From Liolophura sinensis (Eukaryota > Mollusca > Polyplacophora > Chitonida > Chitonidae): a DNA stretch of 64,000 bases. The stretch is from contig NC_088304.1 in NCBI RefSeq assembly GCF_032854445.1, positions 23,261,704 through 23,325,703 on the forward strand, given 5' to 3'. The notes under the pieces were generated by a model. The model was given only the letters and a program-made list of their open reading frames with translations, did no database searches and was not told the DNA's origin. Positions 12,061-61,740 of the stretch are shown piece after piece. The translations under genes and the position numbers were made by a program. Position 1 is the stretch's first letter. Each line of letters starts with the position of its first letter.

Positions 12061-15000
12061 TCAAGATGGCTTTTCTCTCCTCAGCCGTTCAGAGAGAAGG
12101 CGTCCCCAGACCGCGCTGAATGGGTGGGCATAAATAGTCGGTTGGTTGTTATAGTCCACCATAGGTCGTCCCTCATTGGCCCACTTGAACAGGCTGCCCT
12201 CTAAGTTATATACCTCTACTGCTGGCTTGTCAACATTCCCTGTGAACAGAAAACACCACAAATTGGCAGATTTTACTCGAATTACACAGCTCCTGCTTAT
12301 CTACTGCTAGCCTGTCACCTCTCCTTGTATACAGAAAACACCACAGAATGGCAGATTTTGTTCTAATTACACCACTCATGCTTCTCTACTGCTAGCCTGT
12401 CACCACTCCTTGTGTACATATAGCACCACACAATGGCAGACTTTGCTCCAATTACACCACACATGCTTCTCTGCTGCTAGCCTGTCACCACTCCTGGTCT
12501 ACAGATAACACCACAGATTGGCAGTTTGCTCTAATTACACCACGCATGCTTCTCTGCTGCTAGCCTGTCACCACTCCTGGTGTACAGAAAACACCACAGA
12601 CTTGCAGATTTTGCTCTAATTACACCACTCATGCTTCTCTACTGCTAGCCTGCCACCAGTCATCGTGTACAGAAAACACCACAGAATGGCAGATTTTGCT
12701 CTAATTACACCACACACGCTTCTCTACTGCTAGCCTGTCACCACTCCTTGTGTACAGATAACACCACAGACTTGCAGATTTTGCTCTAATTACACCGCAC
12801 ACACTTCTCTATTGCTAGCCTGTCACCACTCCTGGTGTACAGAAAACACCACAGAATGGCAGATTTTGCTCTAATTACACCACTCATGCTTCTCTACTGC
12901 TAGCCTGCCACCAGTCATCGTGTACAGATAACACCACAGAATGGCAGATTTTGCTCTAATTACACCACACACGCTTCTCTACTGCTAGCCTGTCACCACT
13001 CCTTGTGTACAGATAACACCACAGAATAGCAGATTTTCTTCTAATTACACCGCACACACTCCTCTACTGCTAGCCTGTCACCACTCCTCGTGTACAGAAA
13101 ACACCACAGATTGACAGATTTTGCTCTAATTACACCGCACACACTTCTCTGCTGCTAGCCTGTCACCAGTCCTTGTGTACAGAAAACACCACAGAATGGC
13201 ACATTTTGCCCTAATTACACCACCCAAGCTTCTCTACTGCTAGCCTGTCACCACTCCTTGTGTACAGAAAACACCACAGAATGGCGCATTTTGCCCTAAT
13301 TACACCACCCAAGCTTCTCTACTGCTAGCCTGTCACCACTCCTTGTGTACAGAAAACACCACAGAATGGCGCATTTTGCCCTAATTACACCACCCAAGCT
13401 TCTCTACTGCTAGCCTGTCACCACTCCTTGTGTACAGAAAACACCACAGAATGGCAAATTTTGCCCTAATTACACCACGCATGCTTCTCTACTGCTAGCC
13501 TGTCACCATTCCTTGTGTACAGAAAACACCACAGAATGGCAGATTTTGCCCTAATTACACCACGCATGCTTCTCTACTGCTAGCCTGTCACCACTCCGTG
13601 TATACAGATAACACCACAGAATGGCAGATTTTGCCCTAATTACACCACCCAAGCTTCTCTACTGCTAGCCTGTCACCACTCCTGGTGTACAGATAACACC
13701 ACAGAATGGCGCATTTTGCTCCAATTACACCACCCAAGCTTCTCTACTGCTAGCCTGTCACCACTCCTGGTGTACAGAAAACACCACACAATGGCAAATT
13801 TTGCCCTAATTACACCACGCATGCTTCTCTACTGCTAGCCTGTCACCATTCCTTGTGTACAGAAAACACCACAGAATGGCAGATTTTGCCCTAATTACAC
13901 CACGCATGCTTCTCTACTGCTAGCCTGTCACCACTCCTTGTGTACAGATAACACCACAGAATGGCAGATTTTGCCCTAATTACACCACCCAAGCTTCTCT
14001 ACTGCTAGCCTGTCACCACTCCTGGTGTACAGATAACACCACAGAATGGCGCATTTTGCTCCAATTACACCACCCAAGCTTCTCTACTGCTAGCCTGTCA
14101 CCACTCCTGGTGTACAGATAACACCACAGAATGGCGCACTTTGCTCCAATTACACCACCCAAGCTTCTCTACTGCTAGCCTGTCACCACTCCTGGTGTAC
14201 AGAAAACACCACAGAATGGCAGATTTTGCTCTAATTACACTGCACACACTTCTCTACTGCTAGCCTGTCACCACTCCTGGTGTACAGAAAACACCACAGA
14301 CTGGCAGATTTTGCCGTAATTACACCGCACACACATCTCTACTGCTAGCCTGTCACCACTGCTGGTGTACAGATAACACCACAGACTGGCAGATTTTGCC
14401 GTAATTACACCGCACACACATCTCTACTGCTAGCCTGTCACCACTGCTGGTGTACAGATAACACCACAGACTGGCAGATTTTGCCGTAATTACACCGCAC
14501 ACACTTCTCTGCTGCTAGCCTGTCACCACTCCTTGTGTACAGATAACACCACAGACTGGCAGATTTTGCCGTAATTACACCGCACACGCTTCTGTGCTGC
14601 TAGCCTGTCACCACTGCTGGTGTACAGATAACACCACAGACTTGCAGATTTTGCTGTAATTACACCGCACACGCTTCTCTGCTGCTAGCCTGTCACCACT
14701 GCTGGTGTACAGATAACACCACAGAATGGCAGATTTTGCTCTAATTACACCGCACACACTTCTCTACTGCTAGCCTGTCACCACTCCTTGTGTACAGATA
14801 ACACCACAGAATGGCGCATTTTGCCCTAATTACACCACCCAAGCTTCTCTACTGCTAGCCTGTCACCACTCCTGGTGTACAGAAAACACCACAGACTGGC
14901 AGATTTTGCTCTAATTACACCGCACACGCTTCTCTACTGCTAGCCTGTCACCAATCCTTGTGTACAGATAACACCACAGAATGGCAGATTTTGCCCTAAT

Positions 15001-18000
15001 TACACCACCCAAGCTTCTCTACTGCTAGCCTGTCACCACTCCTTGTGTACAGAAAACACCACAAAATGGCGCATTTTGCTCCAATTACACCACCCAAGCT
15101 TCTCTACTGCTAGCCTGTCACCACTCCTGGTGTACAGATAACACCACAGAATGGCGCATTTTGCCCTAATTACACCACACATGCTTCTCTGCTGCTAGCC
15201 TGTCACCACTCCTGGTGTACAGAAAACACCACAGAATGGCAGATTTTGCCCTAATTACACCACCCAAGCTTCTCTACTGCTAGCCTGTCACCACTCCTGG
15301 TGTACAGAAAACACCACAGACTGGCAGATTTTGCTCTAATTACACCACACACACTCCTCTACTGCTAGCCTGTCACCACTCCTGGTGTACAGAAAACACC
15401 ACAGACTGGCAGATTTTGCTCTAATTACACCACACACACTCCTCTACTGCTAGCCTGTCACCACTCCTGGTGTACAGATAACACCACAGACTGACAGATT
15501 TTGCCGTAATTACACCGCACACACATCTCTACTGCTAGCCTGTCACCACTCCTGGTGTACAGAAAACACCACAGACTGGCAGATTTTGCCGTAATTACAC
15601 CGCACACACATCTCTACTGCTAGCCTGTCACCACTCCTTGTGTACAGAAAACACCACAGAATGGCAGATTTTGCTCTAATTACACTGCACACACTTCTCT
15701 ATTGCTAGCCTGTCACCACTCCTGGTGTACAAAAAACACCACAGACTGGCAGATTTTGCCGTAATTACACCGCACACACATCTCTACTGCTAGCCTGTCA
15801 CCACTCCTGGTGTACAGAAAACACCACAGACTGGCAGATTTTGCTCTAATTACACCACACACACTCCTCTACTGCTAGCCTGTCACCACTCCTGGTGTAC
15901 AGAAAACACCACAGACTGGCAGATTTTGCTCTAATTACACCACACACACTACTCTACTGCTAGCCTGTCACCACTCCTGGTGTACAGAAAACACCACAGA
16001 CTGACAGATTTTGCCGTAATTACACCGCACACACATCTCTACTGCTAGCCTGTCACCACTGCTGGTGTACAGAAAACACCACAGAATGTCAGTCAGTTTT
16101 TCAGTTACCCCACATATGCTTAGTAATTTGCTTGTAATTCATTTGCTGAGCACAAGGTACATGTATTTAGCAACAAATAAAGCAATAAGCAACATGAAAC
16201 AATATTAATATATACAATATACTACAATGAAATTGTCACCGTATCATAGATGAAAATACAGTATGAATGCGTGTTCAGCTCAGCAGCCAGTCGTGGATGA
16301 GATAATCCTAGATGTTAGAACATGTATAAAAAAAAAAATAATAAAATGAAAAAAAAAAATGGTGAAGAAATTGTCTATTACTTGCAATTTTGTGTGTAAT
16401 TTTGAACCTGATCAAATTGATCTGCAATCTTTTCAACCACCAAAGCAATTTTATCAGAGGAATTTGTGCATAGAACTATTACGAAAATGATGCTAAAAAT
16501 AATTTGTTTTTATCAATACAGATGCAAGCTTAATAAAACTGTGCAAACTATTTCTCTACACCCGATAGTCCTCTCAGAATGTTTCAAAACACTGGTTGCA
16601 GATGCGCCTGAAAAGGTCAAAGAATCAGTGTATGTTTCAGAAGATTTCAGCAACTTGAAGCTCAGCACTCCCCTGTTTGGGTATATGTGGTTATTTATGC
16701 CACTTAAATGCAGACTTCTATACGTATGTATTTATGTATGCTTGGGGTTTAACGTTGTACTTAACAATTTTTCAGTCATATGACGACATGGAGTCATTAT
16801 TTGCCTGTACCATATATTGTGTCTGCCACCAATGATACCAGACAGGACACCCCACCCAGTGACATTATACAGACACTAATCTGTCATGTTTCCTAGCTCT
16901 AACCTCTCACTGCAGAGCGCCACGCCAGGCAGCAGCAGCAGCAAGTACCATTTTCAAAGTCTTTGGTATGACCCGACCAGGCTTTGATCCCGGGCTCTTT
17001 CGACTCTGATGTTGGCACTCTAATGATCAGGCAGACTTCTGTAATGGAGTCTCATGATTTATTGAGTGAGGTTCACACGAAACAATGGTTTACCTGAGTT
17101 AGTGGCCAGGTAGTCTTGTAGTCTCTCCACCATCCTGGATGACCTGTAGCCCAGTGAGCAATAACATACTACGGTTATCCTTCGAGCATTGTCCGAATCT
17201 GACAAAAGAATCAGAGATCACCCTTGAAAAGACTAGACTCAACTGCCAACTTCTTGATTCATTCATTTATTTTATGCTATACTGGTATTCAATAATATTT
17301 CTCTTGCACAGCGGCAACCAGCATTATGATAGGAGGAAACCGAACAGAGCCCAGGGGAAACCCTCCAACCATCAGCAGGTTGCTGACAGACCTTACCAAG
17401 TACAAACAATAAAGGAAGCAAGCATGAGCTGGACTTGAACTCACAACAACTGCACTGGTGACAGTGTTCCCGCATAGAAGCAGTTCCAGTACAGTGTCAA
17501 GTTACATACTCAAAAAATTCAAATTCATATCTAACCATCCTGCATTTGATTGGTCAGATTCCAGTGACAATGATGGCTTAGACAATAAAATGAAATCTCT
17601 GATTTTTTTTCTTTTATCGCTGATTTTGTCTCTTTGTGCAGCATAAAAACTGAAGTGTTTATGAATTTCATGCCCACAAATTAAGAGATACACTAACTAT
17701 ACAGGTTTACAGGTAAGAGCAATCAAAAAGATGTGAATAATGGTCACCAAAATGGCCACCAAAACAGGACAAGAAAAGCTATAACCAGTCATGTAAGTCA
17801 CATGTCCTTCACATCCTGGTCAACTCTCTCTCTACCTCAACTTATCTGTGTCACGGTGTGACCAGGTGTGTGACAGAATGGACATGTCCTTCAGATCCGG
17901 GGTCAACTCTCTCTACCTCAGCTTACCTGTGTCACAACGTGACTCAGCTTACCTGTCTCACATGGTGACAGGTGTGTGATAGACTGGACATGACCTTCAC

Positions 18001-20021
18001 ATCCTGGTCAACTCTCTCTCTACCTCAGCTTACCTGTGTCACAACGTGACTCAGCTTACCTGTGTCACATGGTGACACGTGTGTGACAGACTGGACATGT
18101 CCTTCACATCTGGGTCAACTCTCTCTACCTCAGATTACGTATGTCACAGTGTGGCCAGGTGTGTGACAGACTGGACATGTCCTTCACATCCTGGTCAACT
18201 CTCTCTGTACCTCAACTTACCTGTGTCACGGTGTGGCCAGGTGTGTGACAGACAGGACATGTCCTTCATATCCGGGGTCAACTCTCTCTACCTCAGCTTA
18301 CCTGTGTCACGACGTGACTCAGTTTACCTGTGTCACATGGTGACAGGTGTGTGATAGACTGGACATGACCTTCACATCCTGGTCAACTCTCTGTACTTCA
18401 GCTTACCTGTGTCACATGATGACCAGGTGTGTGACAGACAGGACATGTCCTTCATATCCAGGTCAACTCTCTCTATCTCAGCTTACCTGTGTCAAGAAGT
18501 GACTCAGCTTACCTGTGTCACATGGTGACAAGTGTGTGATAGACTGGACATGACCTTCACATCCTGGTCAACTCTCTCTACCTCAGCCTACCTGTGTCAC
18601 ATGATGACCAGGTGTGTGACAGACAGGACATGTCCTTCATATCCGGGTCAACTCTCTCTACCTCAGCCTACCTGTGTCACATGATGACCAGGCATGTGAC
18701 AGACAGGACATGCCCTTCATATCCAGGTCAACTCTCTCTACCTCAGCTTACCTGTGTCACGACGTGACTCAGCTTACCTGTGTCACGACGTGACTCAGCT
18801 TACCTGTGTCACATGGTGACAGGTGTGTGATAGACAGGACATGTCATTCATATCCAGGTCAACTCTCTCTATCTCAGCTTACCTGTGTCACATGGTGACA
18901 GGTGTGTGATAGACTGGACATGACCTTCACATCCTGGTCAACTCTCTCTCTACCTCAGCCTACCTGTGTCACATGATGACCAGGTGTGTGACAGACAGGA
19001 CATGTCCTTCATATCCGGGTCAACTCTCTCTACCTCAGCTTATCTGTGTCACGACGTGACTGCTTACCTGTGTCACATGGTGACAGGTGTGTGATAGACT
19101 GGACATGTCGTTCACATCCTGGTCAACTCTCTCTACCTCAGCTTACCTGTGTCACGGTGTGACCAGGTGTGTGACACACTGGAGATGTCCTTAACATCTG
19201 GGTCAATTCTCACAGCTTCAGGTAAATGGCTGACCTCATACTCTTCCACTGGCCGTGTGTCCTGTTTGAATACCAAACCATTAAGATTTCTAAAACAGCT
19301 GTTTAAAAGTTAGGTCATATACAAACTGAAATTACAAACTGGGCACGGAAATAAGATATTAAGATGGATTAAGAATGACTGGTGTTTTACGCCCTACTCA
19401 AACATATTTCACTCATGCCACTGCGACCAGCATTTTGGAGAGGAAGCCAGGATGAGCCGGACTTGAACTCACAACCGCAGTGGTGAAAAGCTCTGGAGTC
19501 ATTGTGCTGCGCAGGTACGCGAACCACCTCAATTATCGAAGCCTCAGTTACAAATATGTATGTCCATTAATTGTGCATACATTATGCTATGATGACTTTA
19601 CTGACTGTAGTTTTTAATTTCTGACAAAACTGTAAAAACTTGTGTTAAAATATTGCTGTTAATATATTGCTAATAAAATGATTGTTATTCCAATTTACGA
19701 CCATGCGTGTAAATTGTCTTCAGTTCCTAGGAAAGAACCATTTTTTCTGTTTTGTGACCCTTACTTGTTTTGGGGTTACACACACTAAGACGCTCTCACA
19801 ACCACTCCACTTTCTGACCAATACCCTCGTACCAGTAAAACAACCTCTCTCTTCTCTGCTGACGATCTCTCTCCGGCGTTCTCTCCCCTTGGTTCCTTCA
19901 TCCACTGGGCTAACTTGTCGGTGGAGAGCTGACGGACATTTCTAAACCTGTGACGCACAGTTGACAACACCATCTTCATACTCAAACTAGGCTCACTATG
20001 TCCTGGTTGACCTTCAGCCAT
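12061..20021 (-). CDS. Single-domain rhodanese (sulfurtransferase-like), complete, four exons
   Basis: Exons: 20021-19833, 19261-19147, 17198-17094, 12239-12061; phases 0, 1, 1 join without a break to give 195 residues. The domain starts with RFRNVRQLSTDKLAQW (about 25-40). Exon 2 opens with DTRPVEEYEVSHLPEA, the D-x-R and SHL signature. Exon 3 carries the active-site loop CSLGYRSS with catalytic Cys115. Exon 4 has VYNLEGSLFKWANEGRP and then HPFSAVWGRLL, a C-terminal signature of a rhodanese group also common in bacteria. Rhodaneses carry sulfur as a persulfide on this cysteine; the donor and acceptor here are unknown. No targeting peptide is obvious. Introns 2 and 3 are filled with minisatellites copied from the gene's own splice junctions (separate entries). 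An in-frame ATG at 20063 is possible, but 20021 gives the cleaner start. Confidence 0.88.
12214..16090. repeat. 85-bp minisatellite derived from the exon-4 acceptor of the rhodanese gene
   Basis: About 45 copies with an exact 85-bp period, for example 'tgtacag' at 12666, 12751 and 12836. Each unit carries GCTAGC in most copies. The unit nearest the gene is not just next to exon 4: it contains the real splice acceptor and the first ~26 bases of exon 4. Read on the gene strand, both show GTGGTGTTTTCTGT, then CACA, then a stretch matching at 22 of 27 bases up to CAGCAGTAGAG or its TAGCAGTAGAG variant. A higher-order period of 340 bp (four units) is visible: the variant 'tgtcaccattcc' occurs at 13501 and 13841. 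The array fills most of intron 3. Confidence 0.93.
16735..17035 (-). mobile_element. SINE3 copy
   Basis: Minus orientation. The 3' domain 'gcttggggtttaacgttgta' is at 16741 and the tRNA-like head near 16970-17030 ('gctttgatcccgggctcttt', B-box-like on minus). It lies in rhodanese intron 3, about 60 bp past exon 3's donor. Confidence 0.75.
17265..17470 (-). mobile_element. SINE2 copy
   Basis: Minus orientation in rhodanese intron 2, from 'ggtattcaataatatttctc' to the head region near 17465. It is diverged and about 200 bp long. Confidence 0.75.
17800..19205. repeat. Minisatellite derived from the exon-2 donor of the rhodanese gene
   Basis: Fifteen units of about 80-105 bp ('gtcaactctct' at 17819, 17902, 18007, 18115 and so on), followed at 19147-19205 by the real exon-2 end. 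On the gene strand the exon reads IDPDVKDISSVSHTWSHRDT followed by the donor ACACAG/GTAAGC. The repeats read, for example, VDPDMKDMSCLSHTWSSCDT followed by ACACAG/GTAGGC or /GTAAGC. Longer units add a second copy of a short palindromic piece such as GTCACGACGTGAC or TGTCACATGGTGACA. The array fills most of intron 2, downstream of the true donor. Confidence 0.92.
19377..19530 (-). mobile_element. SINE2 copy with internal deletion
   Basis: Minus orientation in rhodanese intron 1: 'gtgttttacgccctactcaa' joins directly to 'gaggaagccaggatgagccg', skipping the middle. The tRNA-like head follows. Confidence 0.75.
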
Positions 20022-23237: not shown

Positions 23238-50415
<27,178 letters not shown>

Positions 50416-59468: not shown

Positions 59469-60275
59469 TTAGCCAAAATATGGCGATTTTGACCCTCTCT
59501 TTTGTTTTCCCACACAGTGTGCGTTTTCAATATTGATGTCCGTCAGATCTAGCTTGTCTTCAATAACAGACTTTACAATCTGGAAAGCATTTTCATCAGA
59601 CTTTTCATCAATTCCTCCGAAATGTAAATTATATCCCCGACTATACCGTTCCTGGTCAATGATTTTTTCCTGAAGGTCACGGTTTACCACAGAAAGTGCT
59701 TGCATATTGGATTTAAGTTTTTTCATTTCCTCAGCGTGACTCTTCTGCACTTTGTCTATGATTTGAATGATAGAGTCTGTATGCTGTAGGCTAGAAATGA
59801 GAGACTGTTGAGTTCTTTCAAGTTGAGAGAGGCGCTCCAGTGAACTTTGCTGGGTTGCATGTACCTTGTATAGAGTTTGCTGAATGTCACTCACCGAATT
59901 CATCATAAAATCACGGAACTTTTTGTCTTCCTCGGGTTGTTCTCATCTATCACCTCTCCCTCGTCGCCAGGATCACTGCAGTTTAGACCTTTGGATTGGC
60001 TTCTTGTTGTAGATCTAAGACTTTTGTTGGGGTTGTCCGCTTTCTGAGGCTTTGGTGGCATGGTGGTGGTTCTTGTTGTAGTTCTAAGACTTGTTGGGGT
60101 TGTCCGATTTCTGAGGCTTTGGGGGCATGGTAGTGGTTCTTGTTGTAGTTCTAAGACTTTTATCAAAGTTGTCCGATTTCCGAGGCTTTGGTGGCACGGT
60201 GGTATAAAGCAGGTCCCAGTATGTATGGATAGGGTAACTTTTGTTCACTGAACATTGCTGGGCCCCGCCGAGCAC
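59469..60275 (-). pseudogene. LINE ORF1 (coiled coil, RNA-binding), broken
   Basis: The C-terminal piece, 59906-59469, is a coiled coil (LERLSQLERTQQSLISSLQ) followed by RYSRGYNLHFGGIDEK, as in L1-type ORF1 RRM domains, and is cut by a stop after KSPYFG. The N-terminal piece, 60275-59903, contains three copies of a 66-69-bp repeat coding for PPKPxKSDN ... KSLRTTTRTTTM. The two pieces overlap at ATGA in different frames. Confidence 0.72.
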
Positions 60276-61448: not shown

Positions 61449-61740
61449 GTGGCAGGATAACCTAGGCAGTGATGATGGGATAATTTATGCCTTGTTTTAG
61501 TCCAGGCTTCCACGGCTACGTAAGCTAGCCATTGATGGCCGGATAACCTGGGCAAAGGTAGAAGGATAACGTAGGCTTTGACGGCAGGATAACCTGGGCA
61601 AAGACAGCAGGATAACCTACACATTGACGGCAGGATAACCTAGGCCTTGACGGCAGGATAACCTTGGCATTGATGGCGTGATGACCTAGGCATTGATGTT
61701 ATGACAATCTAGACATTGACGGAATTATAAACCAGTCATT
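61449..61740. repeat. 23-bp minisatellite
   Basis: About twelve copies of a 23-bp unit with core GGCAGGATAACCTAGGCATT, becoming more diverged towards the right end. Confidence 0.85.

Follow-up and report, generated by a model that had tools for sequence, protein, structure and literature searches.

How does a gene splice accurately when one of its introns is filled with near-copies of the very splice site that ends it? The question is raised by a minus-strand gene of the chiton Liolophura sinensis, which lies in the 64,000-nucleotide window analysed here (contig NC_088304.1, positions 23,261,704 to 23,325,703) and whose third intron carries a minisatellite, array A, with 45 decoys upstream of the real acceptor of exon 4. 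We observe a second minisatellite, array B, at the donor of the preceding intron, such that exon 3 lies between the two arrays, with the donor array at the start of the intron on one side and the acceptor array at the end of the intron on the other. The first-pass annotation of this DNA had recognized array A and was incomplete in that it overlooked array B and that further arrays occur elsewhere in the genome. Arrays A and B together present about 60 decoy splice sites in addition to the true ones. The explanation we favor, with a probability of about 0.8, is that both arrays are splice-junction minisatellites of the kind termed mirages in amphioxus, that is, tandem duplications across a junction that were amplified by unequal exchange and are tolerated because the copy nearest the body of the exon remains the working site.

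Array A spans most of the 4,854-bp intron 3, with an intronic part of 3,853 bp (12240–16092). Tandem Repeats Finder (TRF), run on the window, reports a period of 85 bp, 45.7 copies and 92% matches, and it places the far end at 16092 rather than at 16090 as first annotated. As had been proposed, the unit on the exon side is the real intron-3/exon-4 junction, and all but one of the 44 full decoy units share its length, the remaining one being 83 bp long. The real junction and the decoy consensus are identical at 39 of 46 nucleotides (nt), as compared with a maximum of 28 in 2,000 mononucleotide shuffles. Over the exon-4 part alone, 22 of 26 nt agree, in place of the 22 of 27 counted originally, and none of 20,000 shuffles reaches this value, so the similarity to exon 4 is significant against shuffled sequence that, as in all our junction shuffles, preserves base composition and not dinucleotides. 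Adjacent 85-bp units have a mean similarity of 92.6% and exact copies occur at lags 1, 4, 5 and 6, both signs of turnover within the array. Of the 85 nt of the border unit, 69 agree with the decoy consensus; the inner units of array A thus evolve in concert next to a diverged border copy, as in mirages. Within the decoys (12299–16036), the exon-derived columns are 97.8% uniform and the intron-derived columns 91.5%, although the decoys are presumably untranslated, an observation for which we offer no explanation.

Assembly is difficult where many near-identical units follow one another, and the copy number given here may be off. That array A as a whole was collapsed or expanded during assembly is nonetheless very improbable, given that the assembly is described as HiFi-based (PMC11068029), that the units differ from one another by about 7–10% on average and would anchor reads, and that like arrays are found at other loci. 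The same assembly was published under the name Liolophura japonica (PMC11068029), and the species name was later corrected to L. sinensis (PMC12441733).

The gene model has three GT-AG introns whose splice phases agree, and the joined exons form an open reading frame (ORF) of 195 amino acids. The encoded protein matches the Pfam family Rhodanese (PF00581) with an E-value of 9.4e-12 (45.7 bits; cut-off, 22.2), and we predict a rhodanese-domain protein. The NCBIfam model NF045521 aligns to residues 54–186 with an E-value of 9.5e-25, at a score below the model's own cut-off (87 versus 145 bits); because this alignment spans exons 2, 3 and 4, it supports the exon-4 acceptor. A sequence search for homologues of known structure returned none at an E-value of 0.01, and a protein search of the genome yielded four matches, all of them exons of the host gene, with no processed copy among them. 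From the gene model, the working exon border would lie in the outermost unit on the exon side, since only that copy precedes an intact reading frame.

The reverse order of events, in which exon 4 or its acceptor derives from a repeat that was already there, would account for a border unit of the same length as the others and for the fact that the exon part of the array codes for no more than the residues preceding the YNLEGSLFKW core. Exon 4, however, encodes the continuation of the rhodanese domain, the hexamer GCTAGC occupies the exon-derived stretch of all 44 full decoys, the array has no match elsewhere in the genome, and other arrays in this genome end on exons of ancient proteins (DNA-PKcs and RPC1), so we give this order of events hardly any credence. 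A search of the 609-Mb genome with the array A junction returned 45 matches, all within array A, and the array B query returned eight, all within array B; these counts are lower bounds, and very common words were skipped by the search. With no match outside the locus within those counts, a dispersed satellite or a transposon-derived repeat was ruled out.

Every unit of array A had been read as a decoy acceptor. The units do carry acceptor-like sequence, but the AG is lost in three of the 45, and the 42 that retain it (25 CAG, 16 AAG and 1 GAG) have 10–13 pyrimidines in the 20 positions from −4 to −23, as compared with 14 at the real acceptor. On account of this slightly poorer tract, the 42 would not be equal competitors of the real site. 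Two further points of the annotation hold for all 42: the decoy AG sits one base downstream of the true acceptor register, and joining exon 3 to a decoy soon leads to the TAG of GCTAGC, which in our simulation is reached after five additional residues and leaves a truncated product of 141 amino acids.

In array B, 79–82-bp units are interleaved with short donor-to-donor units of 24–26 bp, and the exon-like tail of the short unit is its own (GTCACGTCGTGACACAG). With up to three mismatches allowed, the donor-like sites number 22, the real one among them; under a strict pattern, GT is retained at 19 sites, comprising the real donor and 18 decoys. Agreement with the U1 consensus is seven to nine of nine positions for the decoys and eight for the real donor. 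Simulated use of any of the 18 decoy donors results in an in-frame stop just past the real donor and a product of 105 amino acids.

These features could also be read as those of sites in use, with some transcripts spliced into array A or from array B donors and the arrays tuning the output of the gene. The 141-amino-acid product, whose stop lies in the last exon, would then likely escape exon-junction-dependent decay, and transcripts for the 105-amino-acid product, with its early stop, would likely be decayed. The retained AGs in array A and the U1 matches in array B agree with such use, as does the fact that within each array all simulated products terminate at one place. On the other hand, the two AG columns of the array A decoys are kept at 98% and 95%, not clearly better than the mean of 93% over all columns of the unit, and in the excerpted text of two reports, amphioxus mirages are said not to disturb splicing (PMC3087553, PMC3902484). 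We therefore regard use of the decoys as improbable. Because the conservation of the AG columns is close to the column mean, the decoys appear to be neither purged nor specially kept, and we see no clear sign of selection for or against their AGs.

If both arrays are instead mirage-type minisatellites, a tandem duplication with ends on either side of the intron 3 acceptor would have copied the last 59 nt of the intron with the first 26 nt of exon 4, and a separate one at the intron 2 donor would have copied the tail of exon 2 together with the donor. Slippage and unequal exchange would then have multiplied the copies within each intron, with selection fixing the edge of the array and the remaining units free to drift. 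We infer that the right site is most likely chosen by exon definition, as exon 2 is 115 nt long and exon 4 is the last one, which may couple it to 3′ processing; the slightly better pyrimidine tract of the real acceptor would help. The puzzle is sharper for the acceptors, where all decoys would be transcribed before the real site, than for the donors, where the real site would be made first.

The founding paper on mirages reportedly dealt with amphioxus Adh. Tandem duplications of exon–intron borders are on record for the amphioxus Adh3, globin and troponin C genes (PMC3087553, PMC3902484), and the layout is thus not undescribed, as had been supposed. Duplications in both troponin C and PGBD5 are reported in PMC3902484; those of PGBD5 are similar, and the name mirage is used for the other three genes. 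In arrays A and B alike, the repeat unit spans an exon–intron border, and by their anatomy we would class both as mirages of the amphioxus type. As far as the excerpted accounts of the latter go, the two systems have in common a minisatellite-like duplication of either boundary in many copies with AG or GT, an authentic border at the edge of the cluster, and concerted evolution that spares the cluster boundaries. They differ in the phylum of the host, here a mollusc, and in copy number, with 45 and at least 18 decoys in the chiton versus six and three repeat units in two amphioxus globin haplotypes (BflGb6 and BflGb9 are among the mirage globins). Unlike the amphioxus mirages in those accounts, the chiton gene has one array at a donor and one at an acceptor, in neighboring introns.

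Segmentally duplicated human genes also contain variable internal tandem repeats on exon–intron boundaries that are able to create new introns (PMC2812944). Like the chiton arrays, these are minisatellites lying on exon–intron borders; as described there, they average four units of 30 bp, occur in recent paralogs and often give alternative transcripts, in contrast to the long arrays of the chiton and a host gene for which we found no second copy. Earthworm metallothionein genes have intronic minisatellites and untranscribed duplications of exon 4 that are not shown to be mirages in the part of the report consulted (PMC12783039). Apart from the human boundary repeats, we recognized no mirage outside amphioxus in the titles, abstract openings and passages of the literature searched, which is no proof of their absence from print. 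What is new here is the host and the scale of splice-junction minisatellites, the kind itself being already known.

Are such arrays peculiar to this gene? We surveyed the genome for words that occur three times in a row at a spacing of 63–93 bp. The donor word CAGGTAAG gave 1,757 matches in tandem and 30,137 singly (5.8%), as compared with 276 and 14,616 (1.9%) for its reverse, GAATGGAC, 540 and 38,803 (1.4%) for CAGTGAAG, and 376 and 17,040 (2.2%) for GAAGTGAC. Per occurrence, the donor word is thus found in tandem 2.6 to 4.2 times as often as the three control words, in terms of word matches rather than arrays, as one long array contributes many matches and arrays also enter the single counts. 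Manual grouping of the matches listed for the first 14.9 Mb of scaffold C1 yields 16 donor clusters, versus four and four for two control words.

At several of these clusters, the array abuts a recognizable exon. We compared ten ORFs at the 5′ edge of nine of the 16 donor loci with Pfam, and likewise ten ORFs from nine of 12 acceptor clusters; two loci of each group exceeded the Pfam cut-off. The 5′ edge of the donor array is predicted to be the end of a Hyd_WA/tectonin propeller exon at L016 (Pfam, 1.3e-21), of a DNA-PKcs exon at L019 (Pfam, 7.5e-16; PDB, 3.2e-12) and of an RPC1 exon at L021 (PDB search, 3e-9). The exon at L018 probably belongs to a TRPM channel, with TRPM5 matched at an E-value of 0.0015 and 20 of the 21 PDB sequences listed being TRPM4 or TRPM5. 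Before the donor, the exon reaches into the array by 41 nt at L016, 71 nt at L019, about 32 nt at L021 and 17 nt at L018. On the acceptor side, the 3′ edge of the array is predicted to be the start of a DEP exon at L042 (Pfam, 7.6e-16) and of an exon for the diacylglycerol kinase (DAGK) accessory domain at L044 (Pfam, 1.2e-7). None of the control loci exceeded the Pfam cut-off (10 hand-picked ORFs from 9 of 16 loci), with two matches at 0.03 and 0.09 falling under it. Judging by these domain matches, splice-junction arrays are present at other exon borders of the L. sinensis genome as well. The names DUF3021, DUF7501, DNA_pol_A_exoN, DUF6418 and Amanitin, all below threshold in Pfam, were taken as chance.

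Several results weigh against this conclusion. The TRPM assignment is weak at its E-value, lacks a Pfam match and has an unrelated repeat protein as its top PDB line. The search for exons was uneven, as some control ORFs were shortened to 90 amino acids and two of the donor exons came from PDB searches made for donor and not for control loci. No exon was recognized at 12 of the 16 donor arrays, seven of them unsearched, or at 10 of the 12 acceptor arrays, three of them unsearched. Among the 28 best kinase matches, which are mostly long open exons and so give a weak bound, no locus has an array overlapping the kinase-domain match. The acceptor word TTTNCAGG shows no clear excess either, with 1,599 of 127,358 occurrences in arrays (1.26%) versus 741 of 74,155 (1.00%) for its reverse, and lies under the 1.4–2.2% of the other control words.

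Splice donors might be thought preferred birthplaces of minisatellites in L. sinensis, with acceptors no more prone than control words, a proposal that we advance as doubtful. Such an asymmetry could reflect a transcription- or splicing-linked mechanism of duplication at 5′ splice sites. Alternatively, it could reflect a rule of polarity, under which additional donors do no harm when they follow the real one, whereas additional acceptors that precede the real one, and are transcribed before it, are selected against. Polarity of this kind agrees with an excess of donors that has no clear counterpart among acceptors, because acceptor decoys precede the real site, with the caveat that word counts are a crude test. 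Were the preference real, array A with its 45 copies would count as an extreme survivor, and the genome would offer a natural experiment on how the spliceosome selects among near-identical sites.

Within the same survey, well over half of the 100 plus-strand copies of CAGGTAAG listed for the first 1.38 Mb of C1 lie, by eye, in arrays, and two large donor-word arrays (G000, C1:505639-510471 and C1:535112-537903) have periods of about 49 and 47 bp. Two control arrays themselves resemble splice junctions. That at L023 (G000, C1:1308200-1312200; GAATGGAC at C1:1309535) has an 81-bp unit whose antisense strand looks by eye like the end of a cysteine-rich exon followed by a GGTGAGT donor, and that at C2:3521453 carries CATACTTACC, an antisense donor.

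Artificial tandem duplications of two or three splice sites, engineered in the 1980s as tests of scanning and proximity models, have served to study the choice between near-identical sites. Those constructs and the chiton arrays alike place several near-identical sites in cis, of which one is normally used or, in the chiton, predicted to be, and the chiton case is natural and has 45 copies. Here a single gene has 42 decoy acceptors with an AG in one intron and 18 decoy donors with a GT in the intron before it, which offer a simple read-out, and further cases lie in ancient, well-known genes of the same genome. Accurate splicing at these loci would show that context outside the site is what decides, and with leaky splicing the number of copies would act as a natural dial on gene output. 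The presence of mirages in a mollusc as well as in lancelets makes it unlikely that they are peculiar to cephalochordates. The arrays also constitute raw material for the growth of introns and, as proposed for amphioxus globins, for their gain.

Table 1. Coordinates of the host gene and its two arrays (window positions).
Feature	Position	Strand	Description	Basis
Exon 1, coding part	19833..20021	−	start codon to donor	gene model, ORF
Array B, donor-side	17800..19211	−	units of 79-82 bp and short ones of 24-26 bp; exon-2-like sequence followed by a donor at the end of each	TRF
Exon 2	19147..19261	−	real donor GT at 19146-19145	
Exon 3	17094..17198	−	between arrays A and B	
Array A, acceptor-side	12214..16092	−	85-bp units, 45.7 copies	TRF, unit listing
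Decoy acceptor copies	12299..16092	−	n = 45 (44 full, 1 distal partial); AG retained in 42	
Exon-proximal unit, true intron-3/exon-4 junction	12214..12298	−	59 nt of intron 3 end and 26 nt of exon 4 start	
Exon 4, coding part with stop	12061..12239	−	real acceptor AG at 12241-12240; rhodanese match crosses the junction	

Five other arrays lie in the window, at 724-1014, 2565-2727, 31911-32012, 60001-60203 and 61521-61722, and none was recognized as an exon border on inspection by eye and of their ORFs. The first is a 42-bp minisatellite of 6.9 copies that is open in two minus-strand frames and in which we recognized no gene. The array at 31911-32012 is a 15-bp repeat inside an open stretch; it starts with the donor-like AGGTGAGTGCC and could be a small junction repeat.

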